This document shows positions 11,120 through 60,083 of a stretch of 64,000 nucleotides of DNA, in pieces; the stretch's first letter is position 1; every line of letters starts with the position of its first letter. The DNA is from Acrasis kona (Eukaryota; Heterolobosea; Eutetramitea; Acrasida; Acrasidae): positions 1 through 64,000 of the forward strand of contig JAOPGA020000191.1 of assembly GCA_026419775.2 (NCBI GenBank). Direction: 5' to 3'. The notes under the pieces were generated by a model. It had not been told where the DNA came from, did not search any database, and saw only the letters and a program-made list of their open reading frames with translations. The translations under genes were made by a program, and so were the position numbers.

Positions 11120-12913
11120 ATGGAGATTAATGTGGTTGACACATTCAAGGCTCCAAGAGGCAAAGAAGTCATAATACGATTGTCATGCTATAAACATGGA
11201 GATACGTGGTCCAGTAAATTAACATTAAGCTCACTCAGAGAGATGGACGAAATCTTGCGTAATGACTTTGCAATTGAATGTCAAGTTCCATCTTCCACAA
11301 GATGTGGGTTATATGATGAAACGACAAAGTCAAAATGGAACAATGCTTTACAGTTGTACTTTGATTCCTTATTTATGGAGAACAACTTGAGTGACAATGA
11401 AACAATAGCACAATTTCTTCAAAATGGTCAGATTGGAAGCCCCATGGACTTGCATCTCCCATTGAACGTGATTGCTGATGGCGCAAACAGAGCACCAACA
11501 CCGCGATATCGTCATGGATCAATTAAGATTGGTGGGGACGACGAACAGGAGAACATAACTCTTAATAAACTTGATGTAGTTCGAAGTGATGTGACAACAC
11601 CAACTTCACCCACTTCACCCCTCGAAAGATCTTCTCCCCTTGCACTTTTATCCCCTTATGGTTTGGACGTTCAAAAGTTTGAAAAGTTTCTGGACAACCC
11701 ACCAAGTCCAAGAGCTCTTTTTGATGATGAGCTACCAATTGCACATGATGAGCAAAATGAAAGGGCCTCTCTTTTAATGGAAATATATGATTCGGAGCTT
11801 AAATACGTGGAGTTCACAACACTACTTTGGAACATGTATGTAATGCCGTTAACTGGCGATACGGACGCTTACAAAAGGAATAAGGACGATGTTTGTCCTC
11901 TATCAACACGAACGTCCAATAAATTATTCCCTCCAAACTTGGAAAAGATTATAGATCTACACTTGGCCATCTCCACAAAACTTTGTCATAGATACCATCC
12001 ATACATTAACGATTCAAATGAATTGAATGCAGAAGTCAACAACATTCTTGTGGGAGATGTGTTTTTGTATGCGTGTGAAATGTTAGACGTCTATGTTCCC
12101 TTCCTTCAAAAGTACGACAAGTGCACAAGGACCATTAGAAAATGGAGAAGCAGGGAACCGCTCTTTGATAAGTGGTTAAACTCAAGAAAAAAGATGCAAC
12201 AAAGCAAAGGATTAGATCTTGGTTCGCTTCTAATCATGCCAGGTAAGTCACTTTTCAAAAATTATTGTTCTTAATTAAACAAAGTTCAGAGGATACCAAG
12301 ATATTTATTACTTTTAAAAAGTTTATTGAAATTGACTCCGGAAGGTCACCCAGACAAACTCAACATTGAATCAAGCATTACACAAATTACCAACTGCGCC
12401 ACAAGACACAATGAGCTTATTAGATCGAATTACAAGGTCGTGAGAACGATACAGCTTTCTAAAAAGTTACAAGTACATGACCTACATAGGAACGGTCGGA
12501 GAGTTGTTTGTGAATCAAATGTTGTTGTGAATAAGATTTCTTATCTTGCTGTTTTGTTGTCTGATTTGTTAATTCTTGAAAATCAGTCCAGGTCAACCAA
12601 AGAACGTCCTGCCTTCAGTATGTACGCCATGTATCCTGCGAGATTTGCGAGAAATAATGCAAAAAGTATTGTAATCTGGGTTGTCCAGGAAAGAGTTTGT
12701 CTGGAGTTTGATTCGGTTGAGACCGCCGATGACTGGATGGATCAGCTTACAAATATTTCAGGAGAACTCACACAGCACGAACATTGGGAGCGTTATCTAC
12801 CTTCGGTAATGTTCAAGAGGGTTCCTCTCAATCAAACATGTTGGGATATCATTGTTGGATCAGTTCGGAACTTAACTCGTGCCATGTCAATTGATCAATC
12901 TCATGTAAAATAA
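11120..12913 (+). CDS. RhoGEF with N-terminal PX-like region, DH and PH domains
   Basis: Two exons, 11120-12242 and 12285-12913 (42-nt GTAAGT intron), give about 583 residues. The intron falls exactly inside the best conserved DH motif, and splicing restores M-P-V-Q-R-I-P-R-Y-L-L-L-L-K. The first 115 residues resemble a PX (phosphoinositide-binding) domain by their end pattern (L-S-D-N-E-T-I-A-Q-F-L). The DH domain covers about 215-440 and activates Rho-family GTPases by nucleotide exchange. The C-terminal 140 residues look like a PH domain with a terminal amphipathic helix (W-M-D-Q-L). A Ser/Pro-rich linker (about 155-200) carries several T-S-P repeats, possible phosphosites. It probably acts at membranes on actin signalling. 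Confidence 0.85.
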
Positions 12914-17920: not shown

Positions 17921-20291
17921 ATGGGAGTAGTACCTAACAACAATAGAAGGATTGTTATAGCAATTGATTTTGGAACTGCCCGCTCTGGTTATTCCTTTAA
18001 TGTCATCGGTGAAAAGTCCCACACCCAAGTGTCATCAGCATGGCCACTAAATCAACCAATGAATTACTGTAAAACTTTGACTCAAACTTTGTATCTGTTG
18101 CCCAAAGGACTGAGTGATAAACCTAGACCGCTGTATTTCGGTTTTGAGGCCCTACACAAATACAATGAACTAAGTCAAGAAGAGATTTCGAATTATGCAC
18201 TAGCAAGTTTCTTCAAGTTAAGTCTGACAAGTGAGTTTCATACAGATGAATTAAGCGGCTTCGTGTTCAAGACAATGCAGTTAATTGTAGACTACCTTAC
18301 TTATTTATATGCTGAAATCGCAGAAAAATTGGTGTTTATTCTTGGATATCTACCTAATGAGCAAGATATTCAGTGGTGCCTCACCGTACCGGCAATATGG
18401 AACGACAATCAAAAGAACATGATGAGGGAAGCGTCTTACAGAGCAGGATTAATTAGCTCTACAAATGTTCCTGGTGAGAATTTCATGCTTATTTTAGAAC
18501 CAGAGGCAGCTGCAGCGTATTGTTTAGACTCAATAAGCAAAACACATAACGCGTTAAACGAGCATCAATCTTTTTTAGTTGTTGACTGTGGTGGTGGAAC
18601 AGTTGATTTAACCTCACATGAGATCAAAGATGGTAGGTTGAAGGAAATTATACCAGGAGATGGAGGATTCTGTGGATCTCATTTCTTAGACAACGCATTC
18701 TGGGATGTCATTGCCCTACATAGCTCAAGAGAAGCTGTTAATGACTTCAAGTTGAAGAATGCTCGTGCCGTCACGAAGATAAACATGGAGTGGGAGAACA
18801 CAAAATGTTATATAAAGAGTTTGAACAATAATGTGAGCATACCGCTTAGAGATGAAGCTATAGAGATTTTCCAAATCTTACCAACAAGCAGCGCACTTGT
18901 TGACTCAAGATTTGGAATGTATCGCATAAAGTTGACTCAAGCTGAGCTGACATACATCTTCGAACAAATCTTGAAACAGATCATAGAATTAATAGAAACT
19001 CAATTTAGCAGATTACGTCAACAACAACATAAACCGTATGACTTTATTTTTATAGTTGGTGGTCTCGGAGGTTGCTCAATTATTAAGGATACCATAAATG
19101 CTGAGTTTGGAACTAGAAGCAAAATTCAAACTGTACTTGAACCAGGCGAAGCTGTCGTGAAAGGCGCAAACTTCTTGGGATTAGATTCTTCCTTGATTTG
19201 TGCTCGAAAGATGAGATCCACATATGGCATGGAGGCGATGACACTTTTTAATGACAGCATCCACTCAATTGATAGAAAAATAGCTATAGAGGGGAAAAGT
19301 TATTGCAGAAAGGCATTCGATAAGTTAGTGGAGAGAAAACAAGAAGTAGACGCAGTTCATTATGTAGAGAGAAGATACAAAGTTCAGTCAGCGGATCAAA
19401 AATTCATGTCACTTGATCTTTATATATCAAATGACATTAACCCTATTTATGTCGACCAGAATGGAGTTCACAAATTGGGTCAAGTAGTTATTGACATGAG
19501 CGATTTGAGAGGAGGATCTAAAAGAAGCGTTAATGTTAAGATATATTTTGGAAATAGCGACATTAGAATTGAAGCTGTCCAGTCTAATGATCACATGAAA
19601 GTGTACAACGCGGTGTTCTCATTCGACACTGGGGTACTTGAACAATATAACGCCCCAGTTATTGCAACTATAAATAAGTATCATATCATTTTCGTAAATG
19701 ACCGCTCTGGTTCAATGGAACACCGCGATGTTGCTCCAACCATCGAATATATACGTACAACTCACCCTAATCGATTGGGATCTCTATATGAGGCTTGTGC
19801 ATCATTTTTGGATCGTAGACGGGGATCCAATGATATAGTGTCTTGTATCGCATACAATCATGTTGCTGAAATTATATTCTGTCAACAACCAGTAGAAAGC
19901 GATGTTGTTAAAGAGTTTATGCTACCGTATGCACCTTATGGAGACACTAGTTATGACTGCGCACTTGAACGATTAGGTGAATTAGTGGCGACTACTCCGA
20001 ACGATTACACTCCAATTGTGCTCTTTATGTCAGATGGTGTTTGCTCTAATACAAACTTCGATATTCTTCAAGAATTGATGAATCAACATGCAAAGTAAGT
20101 TAGTACATTATTTATAGACTTAACTTTTCGTTAGACTTGTTGTTCATTGTGTTCTTTTAAATAGTACCGACTTCTTTGGTGACATGTATGAAATAGCTAA
20201 AATTGGAAAAGGAAAGGTTCACAAATCTAATCTGGAGATAGAAGAATTGAAGCAAGTCTATGTTAATCTCGCAGGTATATTGGAAAAATAA
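17921..20291 (+). CDS. HSPA12-like Hsp70 fused to a von Willebrand A domain
   Basis: Exons 17921-20094 and 20135-20291, joined by a 40-nt GTAAGT...TTAG intron, give about 776 residues. Residues about 10-440 form an Hsp70/actin-fold ATPase: A-I-D-F-G-T-A-R-S-G (phosphate 1), V-V-D-C-G-G-G-T-V-D (phosphate 2) and V-G-G-L-G-G-C (adenosine), in the HSPA12 style. There is no classical EEVD tail. Residues about 585-745 are a vWA domain with an intact MIDAS (D-R-S-G-S) and F-M-S-D-G. The intron choice restores the last vWA strand (L-V-V-H-C-V-L-L-N). A further open stretch ending at 20478 might be an extra 3' exon. An ATPase plus metal-dependent adhesion fold suggests ATP-driven binding of a partner; the role is unknown. 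Confidence 0.82.
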
Positions 20292-22321: not shown

Positions 22322-24100
22322 ATGTCTAGTGGATGGATTGTACCTCAGCAAGGAATCAATAAAATCTTCTCTGTCGTAAGTATAATTTTAGAACTCTTTA
22401 TAACAAACAAGGGAATTGACTTTGGTATGAGTGGGATTGGATTTTCAATGGTAAACTTTGATGATCCATCTAACAAAGTGTATACCCATGCGTGGTCAAA
22501 AGGGGCATCTAAAACTAAGAGTGTTTTGCTATTCCAATCCAGTACAACAAGTTATAACCGTGTTGTCAAGTATGGAACAGAGGCTTATGAATTTGTTTTG
22601 GATAACGATGATCTTCAGATTTTAAATAAATATGAGATGCTGAATAGTTTCAAATTGAAGCTATTAGAAGAAGATGATACTATTTTAACGCCTACTGGAA
22701 GATCTACTACCGCCAGCGAACTTGTAACTCTCTTATTAAAAGAAGTGAGAGGTGTAATTGAACAGAAACTGCAAATGATCAAGCCTGGTATTATGGCTAA
22801 TGACATTCGTTGGGTTTTTACAGTTCCTGTTGTGTGGAACGAAAGAGCAAAGTATCGAATGAGAAAAGCGATTTTCGACGCAAATTTTATTGACTTTATA
22901 GACGCTGACGAAGACCATTTAATGATGGTTTATGAGCCTGAAGCTGCAGCTGTTTACTGCATTCATAGTATCAGTTCTAGTGTATCTCAGGCAAACTCAT
23001 CAAATCCTTTTGCTAGTATTCCAAAACTTCCAGAGGGTAGCACTATAATGATTATTGACGCCGGAGCGGGAACTGTAGATATTACTTGTCATAAAATTGT
23101 AAATGGTCTTTTAAAAGAGCGAACCATACGCAATGGTGAAAAGATTGGTTCAGAGGCGTTGGATCAATTATTTTGGGAGACATTAGACATCGAGTTTGGC
23201 GGCAACATTATTGCAAACTTTAAGTCACAGCACCCTTTAGATGCTCTCAGGTTAGAAGAAGAATGGGTGCATCAAAAAAGAACAATTACTTCTCTTAAAA
23301 AACCTATTAACATTCAATTACCACCTCCTCTCGTGCAAAGAGTCTTGATGCATAAAGGAGATACCTACAAAAAAATCAGCACCTATGGAGTGTTCAAATT
23401 GAGACCAGAGCGACTTGAATCAATCTTCAAGCCTGTTTTCACCAAACTATTAAATTTGATTGAAGAGCAGAAATCTCAAGTTGAAAGCCAACCAGGATTT
23501 CAAAAAATTGATTTTACATTTTTAGTAGGTGGATTCGGATCAAGCGAAGCATTGAAAAGTGCAGTAGAAGAACATTTCACGAATCGACTTGGAAAATTGG
23601 TGTTCCCATTATCACCCTCTGAAGCTATTATGGAAGGTGCCGCTTTGCTCGGCCTGAACAATGACCTGATCCATGTTCGCAGATCTAATATGACCTATGG
23701 TATTGAAACTACAAGATCCACTTCTTTAGGAGAGATTGAAGGGGCGAAAATTGAATTGATACGTGGAGACCTACAATATGTCGGTGTGTTCGACAGATTT
23801 GTAGCCAAAGGACAGGAAGCTTACCAGAGTCGACCTATTGTCAAAAAATATGCTATAACAGATCCTAACCAGGAGGAGCTCAATATTATTTTATACGCAT
23901 CTCCAAAAAAGAATCTTCAATTAGTGAATAGTGCTGAATCATTGAAGCTCGGAAATGGAATAAGAATCAAATTTCCTAAAGGTACAGGGAGTAGAGAAGT
24001 AACGGTCTCATTTTATTTTGGGAGAGGTGAGTTGAAAGTTGTAGCTCAAGGACCAACGGGTGACATTCTTGAGCTTTCAGCACCATTTAGCGCAAGATAA
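22322..24100 (+). CDS. HSPA12-like Hsp70 ATPase
   Basis: The frame is open throughout (592 codons), but a 36-nt in-frame intron at 22376-22411 (GTAAGT...ACAAG) is likely. Removing it places V directly before G-I-D-F-G-M-S-G-I-G-F, the Hsp70 phosphate-1 motif, giving 580 residues. Other motifs are I-I-D-A-G-A-G-T-V-D (phosphate 2), E-P-E-A-A-A-V-Y-C and V-G-G-F-G-S-S (adenosine). The family resembles animal and dictyostelid HSPA12 proteins, which have a diverged ATPase and no canonical substrate-binding domain. It is a paralogue of the Hsp70-vWA gene 2 kb upstream but lacks the vWA. Retention of the unspliced 36 nt would insert 12 residues into the ATPase core. Confidence 0.88.
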   Translation: MSSGWIVPQQGINKIFSVVSIILELFITNKGIDFGMSGIGFSMVNFDDPSNKVYTHAWSKGASKTKSVLLFQSSTTSYNRVVKYGTEAYEFVLDNDDLQILNKYEMLNSFKLKLLEEDDTILTPTGRSTTASELVTLLLKEVRGVIEQKLQMIKPGIMANDIRWVFTVPVVWNERAKYRMRKAIFDANFIDFIDADEDHLMMVYEPEAAAVYCIHSISSSVSQANSSNPFASIPKLPEGSTIMIIDAGAGTVDITCHKIVNGLLKERTIRNGEKIGSEALDQLFWETLDIEFGGNIIANFKSQHPLDALRLEEEWVHQKRTITSLKKPINIQLPPPLVQRVLMHKGDTYKKISTYGVFKLRPERLESIFKPVFTKLLNLIEEQKSQVESQPGFQKIDFTFLVGGFGSSEALKSAVEEHFTNRLGKLVFPLSPSEAIMEGAALLGLNNDLIHVRRSNMTYGIETTRSTSLGEIEGAKIELIRGDLQYVGVFDRFVAKGQEAYQSRPIVKKYAITDPNQEELNIILYASPKKNLQLVNSAESLKLGNGIRIKFPKGTGSREVTVSFYFGRGELKVVAQGPTGDILELSAPFSAR

Positions 24101-40317: not shown

Positions 40318-40811
40318 GTAAATCATCCACCAAACACTGATTCCGAACATTTGCGGCCAAAATTTAACAATCATAATTCCAAATCATACATGTAATCATG
40401 AAAAAATATGTTGGATGTGCTGCTCGTGAAATTTAGCAGAATGTAGTTCTTTTTCTTTGAAATTCTATTTGAATGTTTTATTCCAAAGCTGATGGTGAAG
40501 ATTAAATTATATCCAGGGTGCCATGCAGGTGTTTCATCTGAGATGTCTAAATCTGTTAAAAGTTGTTAACCATTTTGTTGTTTGTTTTGTGTCCGATGGT
40601 TGTTGAATTCATTAGTCAATGATTTGTTGTCGTGCTGACATTAAATTCGCGTAACGTGTGGGTCATACCAAAACCAGATTCTTGTAACATTGTAAACATT
40701 TGTAAGCTTTTTGAAGATGCATCACAGAATTGATGTTCACATGCCGAACACCTAAATTTACCTGACTATAAATTGATTGAGTTTATTTTGAATGAGTATA
40801 AAATAGCAACA
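40318..40811. other. Intergenic interval between the oxygenase remnant and the release factor gene
   Basis: About 490 AT-rich bases. No frame with a recognisable domain. The region is divergent between a minus-strand remnant and the eRF1-like gene, so it may contain the eRF1-like promoter. Nothing else is seen. Confidence 0.5.
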
Positions 40812-42129
40812 ATGTCAGGAGAGCAACAGAACGATATTGAAGTGTGGAAGTTTAAGAATCAAATGATGCAGCTGAAATCTTTGAATGGAGATGGAACTTC
40901 TGTGATTTCTCTATTGATCCAACCCAACACTCAAGTGGCACAGGTAGTATCCATTATGAATGACAAATTGAGCTCCACTGGCCGCATCAAGTCGTGTATT
41001 TAACCGTCAATCTGTCCAAACCGCCATGTCCACAGTCATTAGTAGGCTAAAGCTATTCAGGACTACCCCTACAAATGGGTTGGCAGTCTTCTGTGGACTA
41101 GTAAACGACGACAATGACCAAGGAAGAAAAAAGATGAAGAAGGTCATTGTCGTTGTTGAGCCCATATATTCAATCAAACACGACCTATACCATTGTGACA
41201 GCAAATTTCACGTAGAACCACTACTTGATCAACTAGAAGAACATACCCGTGGTGATTCTTATGGATTTATCATCCTAACCGGCTCTGGAACTCTATACGC
41301 AACCATACAAGGCGACACACCAAAGATATTACATTCCTTTTCAGAGGAATTGCCAAAGAAGCACAACAAGGGAGGCCAAAGCCAATCGCGTTTCGCAAGA
41401 AATAGACAAATTGCCATCAAACATTACCTGAGTCAGATCGGAGAGAAGGCAACCAAGAACTTTATTGACGAAGGAACCAACCTCCCTGCCGTGAAGGGCA
41501 TCTTTATTGCAGGGGCTGCCAATCTCAAAGATGAGTTTTTTAATGGAAATTATTTGGACGAGCGCATCAAAAAGATTACTTTGAAGGTCATCACTGTGTG
41601 TTATGGCGGAGAAATTGGTTTGAGAGAGGCCGTAGAGCAAGTGGCACCTATTCTACAAAATGTGAAACATTTACAAGAAAAAAAGATTGTTTGTGAATTT
41701 ATGGACCATGTTTGTAATAATGAAAATCTTGCTGTTTTTGGTGTTAATCATGTTGTGCAGGCCCTAGAAGCAGGAGTGGTCAAAACTCTTGTTGTTAACG
41801 AAAACGTTGATGCTTTGAGAGCGACTTTTACAGATTGTGATGGTGGACTCACCACTCACTTCATGTCAAGATCAGAATTTGATAAGAGGTTACAAGGCGG
41901 TTCTAATCTTGTGGAACAAACACCAGCGCTGGAATGGATCGTTGAACAATATCAGAAAAAAGTTTATACTAATGTTGAGTTGAGTATTGTGAGCGACAAA
42001 ACTTCTGAGGGGAGCCAACTTTTAAATGGATTTGGAGGAATGGGTGCAATATTGAGATACAAGATGACATTTGAGGACGAATGCTTTTATCAATCAGACA
42101 GTGAAGACGACTTGTCAGATTTCATCTAA
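40812..42129 (+). CDS. eRF1: eRF1-like translation release factor with in-frame UAA and +1 shift
   Basis: The start at 40812 gives M-S-G-E-Q...V-W-K-F, as in eRF1. The first frame ends at TAA 41001-41003 after 63 codons. Skipping T41001 continues in the +1 frame (N-R-Q-S-V...) to 42129. The sum is 438 residues, against 437 in human eRF1, with no gap at the join (R-I-K-S-C-I / N-R-Q-S-V versus N-I-K-S-R-V-N-R-L-S-V). Domain M keeps G-G-Q (H-N-K-G-G-Q-S) and the C-domain keeps the minidomain and acidic tail. In domain N the Y-x-C-x-x-x-F motif is intact (Y-H-C-D-S-K-F). NIKS is R-I-K-S and the position of Glu55 is Lys, so stop recognition may differ. No GT-AG intron explains the break. Either programmed frameshifting, a pseudogenic paralogue, or a one-base error. 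Confidence 0.8.
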
Positions 42130-42281
42130 ACAATAAAAATACTTCCTTTCGGGCATTTCTATTTGTTTTTCTACTTTTGCTTTATTATTACAAAAATGAA
42201 GTTTTTCATCGATACATACGTAGTGTTTGGATAGAAATAGAGACAATATATTATCAAAAAGTGAGTACGACGATGATTTCG

Positions 42282-55777: not shown

Positions 55778-58700
55778 TCAATCTCTATCCGATGCCAGGC
55801 TGTAATTACTCTCGTCACCTAGGGAAAATAGATCGTCTCGTTCTAAATTGTCCGACGGTATTGTGACATTCAATATACTGGAAGAATGACTTCTCCCTGA
55901 TAATCGTGAAGTGAGTGCTTCGGCTTGACCCCCCTCTGTTTGAGAGAAGGAATACCCCTTGAAGTCTAGTGGCTGTAGTAAGGTCTTTTTAGAGCCTCTG
56001 TGACTGGCAAGAGGGGAATCATAGGGAGCGGTGACGTTAGCGTTGAGCCTCGTCCTCTCATCCTCTCTTGGACTCTCCACTGGTGATGGATTTCCAGGTA
56101 GAGACAAGTACACTCCAGGTTTTAATCTACGTTCTGGTGGCTTCAAATCTACAATCTCTGGACATATGTTTTTGAATGATTCCTCGTCAAACTTGACACC
56201 CTTCTTGCGTTGTGTATCCTGTATTACATGGTAAGGTAATCTGAGCCAATTCTTCACATATGGCAAATTAATCTTCACATTATGAACGACTGATTTGGTC
56301 AGTAGATCCTTGACAAGTGCAATCCCTATTGTAATTCCGCAGATAGCCCAGAACAAGGGATTACCGGCAGCGTTAAAGAACTCAAAGTAAGCATATTTTA
56401 GTTGACTAAAAAACTCAAACATTGAGGGGCTCAATGGGGCTTTACCGATCGGTAGCCACAAAACACTATATACATTTGCCACCACAAACCAAGACAGAAT
56501 AGAGCCATACACAGAAAGGTAATTAAATACTGTCATACTGGCACTCTCCAATGCAACCTTTAGTGACACGACAGTAATAACGCTGGTATACACTATATAA
56601 CTGAGATACGAAAACTCAGCAACAGCCCCATTGTACAAAGTAGATAAACTGTAATATGGAATAAAGAAGCAGCACACAGAATGCCAAGCACTCGTAAACA
56701 GCCAACCTACAAATACTCTTATATCAAAGTAATGTCCGCGTTGGCCGAGCGAGAACAATTGAGGAATGTTCATGCTGGCTTCAATACTAACGTCTCTATC
56801 AAAAAGGCCAAAAGCCATAATTGGTATGGACGTGAACACAATATTATACAAAGAAAGTAACAAACTATCATATACACTTGCCCCTGTGTATGCATTGTAG
56901 AAGACAAACCAGAATTGACAGAGTTGTAGAGTTAAATTTTTGTAGAAACTATAGCAAATCAAACGCGCTATACGTCTATAATTGTATCTTCCATGCACTA
57001 ACAACAGTTTTTTCAAGTATCTGAACTGACCAATAGCGTAGTCACTGGCTCTTGCAGCCTGCAATCCCTCCTGTCCACTAATTCCTATTCCAATGTGTGC
57101 TGCTTGAATCATGCTGACGTCATTGGCACCATCACCAATAGACAGTGTAATCGCTCCATCAAGGTTATTTTTCACCAGCTTCACAACTAGAGCCTTCTGC
57201 AGAGGACTGACTCTGCAACAAATGACACTTTTACAATACATACACAATTTTAAGAAAGTAACTGCAAGCTTTTCTTCTCCAGGCAAGTCGACATCAACAC
57301 CATCGTTGTTGTTACTTAGAGGAGTAACAGTAGGAGGGGATGGAAGCGGAGATTGAACATCTTCTTCTCCAGGTTCTTCAAGAGGACCAGATAAACCACT
57401 GGGAGAAGAACTGGTGTTTCGTTGCTGTATCTTTTCTTCCAATGTTGGTTCGTGAGAACTGACATCTTCATTACTCTGCAACACCAATTCCAAACTAGAA
57501 CCGTCAATCACCACACCTATACCACTTTTATTTTCAATTAAACCTCTTTGGGCCAAATCTAACTTTTCACGAATTTCCTTCTTTAAGGAGGCCCTGTCGG
57601 AATCATTCAACACTATGATGCCCATGTTGTTGTCCAGCAATGCACAAGCGAAACCAATGTTAATGGCTGTTTCTTGCTTGTCTCCTGTTAGCACCCAAAT
57701 CTTGATTCCTGCTCTTGCTAAATCAGAAATAGTGTCAGGGACGCCGTCTTGTAGTTTATCTTCTATGGCGCTGGCACCAATCAATGTCAAATTCTTTTCC
57801 ACCTCTTCTGCAGCGGCAGCAACTGCTTCTTCTTTGTCGGTTAATGATGTATTTGCCTTATCAAACACATCCCTATTCCACTTGCCATATGCAATCGGAT
57901 CCAATTCTACTTGAGCACATACCAAAGTCCTTAGCCCCTCCTCCGCGAACTTCCTCAAGTTTTCCTGTGTCGATTCGAGGTAAGGTTGACCAGGTTTCAG
58001 TAGTTTAAAAATGACATTATCGGCTCCTTTAGTCATTAGCAAGATACGTTGGTCCTGCGTTCTTACAATGACGCTCATTCTTTTTCTAGTGGAATTAAAT
58101 TCGAGGACATTGAGCACTTCGTATGTCTCCGAAACACCATCTGCCTCGATGGTGCAACTTGTGGGTGTTCTATGTTTAAAAACAAAACCGAGGTCTGCAG
58201 CAGCCCTTACAAGTGCTCCTTCGTCAGGAGATGCTGCTTGGTAGAAGAGTTCGTTTGGATTCTTTTTATCAATCTCTGGAATTACTGTGTGACAAACGGC
58301 AAGTAGAGTGAAGAACTTTACAATGCTGAGGACATGTGGTTCATTTACAAATGCTCTATCTATAATGCGCTCGTCATAAAAGTTGAAACCTGGTTTACTG
58401 GGTATCCAATCTAAAGGTCTATCGTCATGCAAATCGATTCCGTTTCTCTTCGCTGCTGCTCTTCCTATTTCCGTTGTACCTCTGCCATACTCGACTCCAT
58501 TTACACTGAATTTTAGAAACTCCATTACATTCTGAGTAAGCGTTCCTGTTTTGTCTGAGAAGATGTACTCGACTTGACCTAGTTCTTCATTCAACGAACT
58601 AGTTTTGGCTGATGCTGGAATATCGGCTGGTTCGTAGTATATGTCGATATCCTTATCTAAAATCCATCTCGCTTGTAGCATTTTGACAAACTCCATACTA

Positions 58701-59931
58701 ACGTAAAGACTGATGGGAATAAAGTTGTTGAATAGAATGAAGAAGGTGACGAGGCCTTGTAAGCCTGTTATAACGGCCGAATTTATGATTCCGGGTAGAA
58801 CGTAGTATGCACCAGGGTTGGTATATTGCCAAACTCCTATACCGATGGCACAAGCAACAGTCACCAGCACTTCTAGGGCGAACAAGATGGTAATCATGTA
58901 ATTAGTCAAAATCTCTACTCTGCTCTTTTTGTGAGGTGCTTCTTCAGAGTTCATCATTAATTTGGTGTGACTACCAGTATAAACAACAACACCGAAAATG
59001 TGAGTAGTGTTTTTTAGAACAGCACCACGAAGTAATATTTGTTCTACTTCTACGGGGACTGTTTTTTCGTCCTCGTCAATTAGCACGCCAGCCTCCATTC
59101 TAATTGTACCCAAGAATTTGTATAGTTGATTGTTGGGCTGCTGACATGTTATGGTAGCCTTGACGTCCGTGAGGGAGTCAACGGTATAAAGGTCAGACGT
59201 TACTGGTAGGGAGCGTCTAATTTTCAAATTCGTCTCTCCATCAAGTTGTGAAGTTTCAATGTAGCACAAGCCACCTAATTCAGAGCTCACTAGACAAATC
59301 ATATCTGCCGGAAAAGCTTGATCCTGTTCCACCTTTAAGATATCCCCGACACTTTTTGAGTGAGTAAAATTGAAATGAGCTCCTTACACGACTTCACTCC
59401 AAAGTATCTCTTTTAATACTCCATCTCTGATTGCCTGTGATTTTGATTTGTTTACTTGTCTGTCGGCCAGATGACGTTTCTGCGAGGTTAGCATTTACAA
59501 AGGCGTTTATTTTACCAGGTCCTCAAATCCATCCTTAACCATTTGGAACAAAACCACCAGCAGTAGTGGTATTGCGGTACCAAATTTTCCTGTAGGACTT
59601 AGCCCCGAGAACAGCTGCAACATTGATATAACAAAGAAGTAAATATTTGCAACCCTGCAGAACTGCTCAAATAGATTGTACGGAAGAAAAGTTATAATGT
59701 TGTACTTCGCAGTGGACACTTTGTGTATTAATTTTTTTGATGGTTCAATCGGCTTACCTCCATTGCTACAAAACTTGTTTGCACGATTAGCATTTGCAAG
59801 AGGGTCATTCGTAACGATAACTCTCGGTGTGGTGGGAAGCTGCGAACGATTAGTAATACAACAAGCTATAGTGCTACCTTAAGCCATGGTATCTTGGACT
59901 TTATCTTGTTGATAATCGTCCCAAGATTCAT
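55778..59931 (-). CDS. P4-ATPase phospholipid flippase
   Basis: Five exons: 59931-59878, 59839-59758, 59718-59516, 59479-59388 and 59351-55778; introns 38, 39, 36 and 36 nt; about 1334 residues. Splicing restores S-T-A-K-Y-N-I-I-T-F-L-P and V-V-V-G-D-I-L-K-V, both P4 signatures. Catalytic D-K-T-G-T (about residue 407), D-G-E-T-N in the actuator loop, and G-D-G-A-N-D-V-S-M near residue 883 are intact. About ten membrane segments, and a Ser/Pro/Glu-rich insert (about residues 800-850) in the nucleotide-binding region. P4-ATPases flip aminophospholipids to the cytosolic leaflet of Golgi and plasma membranes, usually with a CDC50 partner (none in this window). The C-terminal 180 residues are cytosolic and phosphosite-rich. 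Confidence 0.93.
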
Positions 59932-60083
59932 TGTGCGTGCCCCGACTACTGTAGCGATGCCCTTACAATACGAAAATTTTTCTACTTTTGAAATAATGTC
60001 GCATAAACATCAAAAGGCCATAAATGTAAAAATCGACACCAGGCATCTAATAAAAATCTTTCTGTATTTTGTTTATTTGAATT

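Follow-up and report, generated by a model that had tools for sequence, protein, structure and literature searches.

In eukaryotes, antizyme provides an example of a +1 shift at a stop codon, UGA, that serves feedback, the signal being polyamine. In bacteria, autoregulation of a release factor through a frameshift at its own stop is textbook knowledge, and the frameshift of release factor RF2 is accompanied by a Shine-Dalgarno-like stimulator. The closest described systems are found in giant viruses: passages of Jeudy 2012 (PMC3521657) describe Mimivirus R726 and Megavirus mg280 as release factors of the eukaryote/archaea type, whose genes combine a readthrough with +1 shifting, the site of which is CUU UAG C or CUU UAA C. 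According to the same passages, the full-length viral factor is expected to damp its own synthesis, the break is common to both viruses, the mechanism is stated to be absent from eukaryotic and archaeal homologs, an Acanthamoeba eRF1 paralog has no internal stop, and UAA-C is reported to be among the most frameshift-prone contexts in yeast. Plant eRF1 is also autoregulated, in that readthrough of its genuine stop shields the mRNA from NMD (Nyiko 2017, as relayed in a section of PMC11062462). In Euplotes, about one fifth of genes shift +1, for instance at AAA TAA, and such sites can persist neutrally, as stated in parts of PMC10235951.

The locus presented here belongs to a window, the stretch of 64,000 nucleotides that was analysed, which is part of contig C100 in an Acrasis kona genome searched as 37.35 Mb in 1021 contigs. 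Its organization is of the RF2 type: an early in-frame stop interrupts a release factor gene, and the remainder of the gene lies in the +1 frame. We consider it, with a probability of about 0.68, to be a functional eRF1 paralog that needs a +1 frameshift at an in-frame UAA and is likely a reserve release factor made when termination is slow. The features of the locus are as follows.

40683..42170, + strand: duplicated segment, comprising the gene with about 130 nt of 5' and 40 nt of 3' flank, covered by a single blastn match to a second copy
40812..41003, + strand: ORF1, zero frame, 63 codons and TAA; N-terminus of eRF1 domain 1 ending R-I-K-S-C-I-stop, homologous to eRF1 up to KSRV
40986..40994, + strand: IKS codons of the NIKS-equivalent motif (RIKS in this gene), read from the sequence
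40996..41035, + strand: top alternative intron, 40 nt, GTATTT...CCACAG; disfavoured (the +1 shift scores 40 bits higher, and the donor is GC in the second copy)
40998..41004, + strand: proposed shift site ATT TAA C, at which T41001 would be skipped; identical in both copies
41002..42129, + strand: ORF2, +1 frame, 375 codons from N-R-Q-S-V... to D-L-S-D-F-I-stop; rest of domain 1 and domains 2 and 3 (Pfam eRF1_2, eRF1_3)
41188..41208, + strand: YxCxxxF stop-recognition motif (YHCDSKF); Y126, C128 and F132 invariant in the alignment
41371..41379, + strand: GGQ peptide-release motif, invariant in the alignment

At the site itself, ATT occupies 40998-41000, TAA 41001-41003 and C 41004, and when TAAC is read as a single Asn step the gene translates without interruption into 438 residues. 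The first ATG of ORF2 lies at 41026, leaving eight codons between TAA and ATG that encode NRQSVQTA. The +1 frame is open already from codon 53, and the sequence alone permits a shift anywhere in codons 53-63; we place it at TAA because both homology and the substitution pattern favour that position.

Taken by description only, the gene resembles the Mimivirus and Megavirus factors in being of the eRF1/aRF1 type, with an internal stop and a +1 shift. The viral genes have an extra UGA-C readthrough stop upstream, whereas the Acrasis ORF1 has no further in-frame stop from ATG 40812, and so no readthrough stop of the Mimivirus kind. The P-site codon also differs, being CUU in the viral genes and AUU in the window gene, as does the setting, a viral genome on one side and, on the other, a cellular genome that also holds an intact eRF1. 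The site shares with Megavirus CUU UAA C and bacterial CUU UGA C a codon ending in UU, a stop starting with U, and a following C. Antizyme offers a likeness as a eukaryotic +1 shift at a stop that serves feedback, in a protein unrelated to eRF1; a search of this genome in which no positive control responded gave no antizyme match. With bacterial RF2 (prfB) the gene has in common an early in-frame stop, the C after it, a +1 shift and, putatively, the feedback logic set out in parts of PMC3521657 and PMC5009743; RF2, however, belongs to an unrelated protein family and shifts at CUU UGA C, while the window gene has AUU UAA C and no stimulator was found in it. Plant eRF1 would be similar as a eukaryotic eRF1 gene that responds to how well its product works at a stop, but has neither the frameshift nor the internal stop of the window gene.

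The sequence-only reading of this locus had ended the zero frame at TAA 41001-41003 and obtained a full-length eRF1 of 438 residues by skipping T41001, and its coordinates were right. The joined product scores 353.3 bits against TIGR03676, the aRF1/eRF1 model (cutoff 234.7, residues 11-417), and its best matches are solved eRF1 chains, over residues 4-421 (best, E 3.8e-92) or about 7-435. ORF1 alone matches no Pfam family at E 0.001. For Pfam eRF1_1, the joined product gives a nearly full match of 52.3 bits, compared with 20.2 bits, under the cutoff, for ORF2 alone. Against a profile of canonical eRF1, ORF1 scores 45.3 bits, ORF2 367.2 bits when started from AAC 41002 and 352.2 bits from ATG 41026, and the joined product 428.0 bits, the NRQSVQTA codons contributing 15 bits of eRF1 homology. 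GGQ, YxCxxxF and IKS are all present in the joined product, with NIKS replaced by RIKS and the TASNIKS loop altered to STGRIKS. At one position of the stop-reading loop, which we take to be human E55, Lys in the paralog stands against Glu in the aligned canonical copy. The altered loop may change the stop preference of the paralog, and release at all stops would, by the same residues, not be assured.

A second copy of the gene is located on the minus strand of contig C320 (L002, G000:C320:71314-72796) and is 94% identical over 1493 columns of a single blastn match; beyond it, nothing in the window matches the 140 kb of C320 compared, and the flanks of the copies differ. The break is identical in both, reading TGT ATT TAA C in the window and TGC ATT TAA C in the second copy. 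A degenerate DNA pattern for the site, which is specific to this gene and silent on shifts in other genes, occurs twice in 37.35 Mb, both times in the eRF1-like copies. Over 1318 coding bases the copies show 60 mismatches and one 3-nt indel, with no further stop or frame-breaking indel, and the about 130 nt of 5' flank contain several gaps, some of them not multiples of three. When uniform substitution was simulated at the same synonymous divergence, a mean of 7.8 new stops arose and 1 of 2000 runs had none. ORF2 differs between the copies by 34 synonymous and 21 nonsynonymous changes (dS 0.158, dN 0.024, dN/dS 0.15), and ORF1 by five synonymous and no nonsynonymous ones.

The positions of these changes also bear on where the frame is switched. 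At 40925, 40961, 40988 and 40997 the differences leave the zero-frame protein unchanged, and each would alter the +1 frame. After the stop, those at 41049 and 41103 leave the +1 protein unchanged and would alter the zero frame, that at 41071 would alter both frames, and that at 41060 alters +1 and not the zero frame. Because the silent frame differs on either side of the interval, the coding frame switches between 40997 and 41049, and because NRQSVQTA is homologous to eRF1, the switch is located at TAA. Judged from these comparisons, both ORFs are under purifying selection, and the pattern is the trace of a translated frameshift and not that of a pseudogene.

Four matches to eRF1 domain 2 were found in the genome: L001, L002, the window gene and L004, the last of which we read as a candidate Dom34/pelota gene. 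A search for a second intact eRF1, advised when the locus was first read, was thus answered by L001 (GTASNIKSRVNRLSV), the intact canonical eRF1 of the same genome, whose gene has no such break. Since this gene is present, the shifted genes are paralogs and not the sole release factor; that canonical eRF1 provides the function already is a point against the proposed role. In a tree computed with the shift site left out, and with a bootstrap that had not settled, the window family (A, six rows) forms a clade (98/93) and a second family (B, 14 rows) forms a separate clade (86/82). L001 adjoins Naegleria (100/96), its nearest named relative in the set compared, and the two fall within a group of 12 canonical eRF1s and one unbroken eRF1 (96/87) that excludes A and B; other unbroken eRF1s, including that of Anaeramoeba, also fall outside this group. 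A quick tree of 78 rows puts family B among the canonical rows with weak support. When A and B were constrained to group, the likelihood rose by 29.6 (p-AU 0.92) in one quick tree of 50 rows and fell by 2.6 (p-AU 0.158) in a tree of 40 rows that excluded the site. In a 40-row tree, deriving the window family from the canonical lineage of this genome was 41 log units worse (p-AU 0.063).

Protein searches for relatives listed 346 proteins, the best 120 of 167, 1877 and 1418 matches with overlap; 8000 candidates were scored in the search that gave 1418 matches, and the search with the ORF1 peptide, represented by the best 120 of 1877 matches, was dominated by canonical eRF1 fragments and uninformative. 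The four nearest relatives of ORF2 listed (62, 48, 49 and 46% identity) have their recorded start at the internal Met of ORF2, and family A relatives bear on the break through the position of the ORF start only. A tree member labelled EukProt (P0330) likewise begins after the shift site. Family B, whose members may be cellular or viral, retains upstream +1-frame residues, as in SSRVFNRQSV, and keeps FNRQSVQxA. We defined as testable those relatives in which six or more residues precede FNRQSV, which left out P0063 and P0248, where only a Met stands upstream. As far as protein letters go, this being the form in which the relatives are known and one in which a Phe encoded by TTC would put CAA and not a stop in the zero frame, a zero-frame [IV]KS-x-[VILF]-stop is possible in 13 of 13 testable proteins (8 clusters at 80%), compared with 679 of 102,830 controls (0.66%). 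The strict form xIKSRV-stop is possible in 12 of the 13 (P0292 being the miss) versus 145 of 102,830 control windows. In 247 NR[QLIV][SA]V contexts, canonical proteins have V, T, I, A or M just ahead of the motif and 15 cases have F; S, Y and C, the residues that other third bases before TAA would give, never occur there. Because the preceding residue is F, the last codon is scored as NTT in 15 of 15 non-canonical relatives (10 clusters at 80%); in long ORFs sampled from this genome, NTT makes up 33% of Val codons and 45% of Ile codons. The choice of UAA over UAG or UGA in the relatives is no separate evidence, because the conserved Asn forces UAA. In the comparison of the same site in related species, which had also been recommended, the protein letters are compatible with the break in 13/13, with NTT in 15/15: judged from residues that a stop would fit, the break appears to lie at one and the same codon in the relatives. 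Separately, the canonical eRF1 fragments P0149, P0154, P0168, P0175, P0183, P0187 and others end exactly after KSRVN[RK], probably at an exon border that lies in almost the same place as the frameshift.

In both copies the stop stands in a weak context, UAA followed by C, which is the rarest UAA context among the stops of 74 unfiltered long ORFs (4 of 74; UAAA accounts for 29). We propose that ribosomes would reach UAA in this poor termination context (3' C), after an Ile codon in the P site, and would usually terminate, leaving a useless peptide of 63 residues. Slow release would allow a one-base slip, either by re-pairing of the P-site tRNA from NUU to UUU or, alternatively, by out-of-frame entry of Asn-tRNA on AAC, after which the ribosome would complete a full-length release factor. 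Slow termination at UAA would in this way yield more paralog, which would relieve termination and supplement canonical eRF1. We infer this negative feedback because the product carries the parts of a release factor (GGQ, IKS, YxCxxxF), and the autoregulatory loop is put forward on sequence grounds. The sequence-only reading had likewise suggested autoregulation by frameshifting: its shift stands as the best reading, given the two copies, selection and the relatives, while the autoregulation keeps the conditional status it has here. AUU and GUU can re-pair with UUU at two positions only, which is poorer than the CUU of RF2; since the codon is AUU (NUU in relatives) and not CUU, the site would be RF2-like in its working with a signal that is not the same. 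Over the 97 nt that follow the stop, no stimulatory structure stands out (z -0.66).

The shift could also be constitutive and non-regulatory, that is, efficient and merely tolerated, with no feedback. In Euplotes, where as in the window gene +1 shifts take place at UAA, shift sites can persist neutrally (a point made in part of PMC10235951), and a canonical eRF1 is present here beside the candidate. Several conserved genes of this genome, in what is a small sample, match their Pfam models nearly end to end in one frame (FH2, PMM, OTU, an HSP70 and the canonical eRF1), and one gene family is known to need the shift. Two other genes, RhoGEF and P4-ATPase, are split, the former in a way that a 42-nt GT-AG intron would explain. 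The break moreover appears to recur where feedback makes sense, in the release factor gene class and at a single codon, NTT being scored there in all 15 relatives. We regard a purely tolerated shift as unlikely.

Restoration of the frame at the RNA level, by a short intron, editing or polymerase slippage, is a further reading. The RhoGEF ORF (11120-12274) resumes past a 42-nt GTAAGT...AAAG intron (12243-12284), restoring LLIMP-VQRIPRY. Given that this genome contains short GT-AG introns, splicing has to be taken seriously; the probable exon border near the break in many canonical eRF1 fragments points the same way. The earlier statement that no GT-AG intron can bridge the break does not hold literally: with donors at 40872-41001 and acceptors within 400 nt, 99 GT/GC-AG pairs, each 20 nt or longer, would restore the frame. 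The best of them, the 40-nt pair at 40996-41035, nevertheless gives a product of 387.7 bits versus 428.0 bits for the +1 product and removes conserved +1-encoded residues. It has a GC content of 0.475 and a donor, GTATTT, unlike the GTAAGT of RhoGEF, and the copies differ at one of its 40 positions, a change that leaves the second copy with GC in place of the donor GT. Fifty-two of the 99 pairs stay GT-AG in both copies, the best of these being 44 bits below the shift. An intron across the break was rejected, being 40 bits worse at best with its donor gone in the second copy. A run of three T is short for polymerase slippage. Taken together, we consider a correction in the RNA very unlikely.

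About as improbable, if anything slightly more so, is a locus with two products, ORF1 as a short peptide and ORF2 translated by reinitiation from ATG 41026 as an eRF1 without the NIKS region. Gene callers do start the four nearest relatives at the equivalent of ATG 41026, but NRQSVQTA, upstream of that ATG, is conserved with canonical eRF1 and worth 15 bits, family B keeps FNRQSVQxA, and the conservation of ORF1 as eRF1 domain 1 argues against separate products.

A pseudogene, for which the intact canonical eRF1 elsewhere in the genome could speak, or a one-base sequencing or assembly error, both of which the sequence-only reading had kept as alternatives, is scarcely credible in view of the same break in two copies 6% apart, purifying selection on both ORFs and relatives that appear to share the break, relaxed selection being rejected by a dN/dS of 0.15 and the lack of further stops.

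The frameshifted eRF1 paralog thus preferred is not of an undescribed kind, since giant viruses have it (in the passages of PMC3521657 cited above), yet the cellular eukaryotic case of release factor frameshifting still appears new. Among the matches listed in the open-licence literature, a body that most subscription papers fall outside, there was no report of a frameshifted cellular eukaryotic eRF1. A conserved cellular case would mean that eukaryotes had evolved, or retained, the same feedback. Such a gene would act as a natural sensor of termination capacity in living eukaryotic cells, and its NUU UAA C would be a new +1 shift signal that has no obvious stimulator. It would also offer a cellular candidate source for the giant-virus release factor genes, the origin of translation genes in giant viruses being a standing question. 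A broader idea, which we hold to be rather doubtful, is that a frameshift-gated reserve eRF1 family of one ancient origin is widespread in cellular eukaryotes, and that the frameshifted factors of giant viruses were taken from this family or were its source; if so, the 'bacterial' trick of giant viruses would in fact be eukaryotic. Scans of viral contigs returned no frameshifted relative, the giant-virus release factor genes themselves not being among the matches, and only one unbroken protein. The latter, 329 aa long, is aRF1-like, contains NIKSR and GGQ, and is encoded on a 121-kb viral contig (L044 2444-3430, IMGVR_UViG_3300044799_000154). Among 33 DNA pattern matches in viral and prokaryote contigs, none has IKS-x-x directly before TAA.

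The surroundings of the gene are those of a eukaryotic genome, the window carrying formin FH2, RhoGEF, RFC1-like, phosphomannomutase, P4-ATPase and HSP70 genes. A viral origin of the locus was rejected, as the flanking genes with Pfam matches are cellular, several of them eukaryote-type and none viral. Near the second copy, contig C320 holds a gene with a sestrin (PA26) domain (L052 5426-6328) and another with a 2-oxoacid dehydrogenase acyltransferase domain (L052 4040-5341). The P4-ATPase ORF of the window (55778-59332) is missing its N-terminal part in frame; N-terminal-like P4-ATPase pieces are found upstream in other frames at 59200-59980 (- strand), probably behind short introns. The window also encodes two divergent HSP70-like proteins, at 17921-20098 and 22322-24100, the first with a C-terminal von Willebrand A domain.
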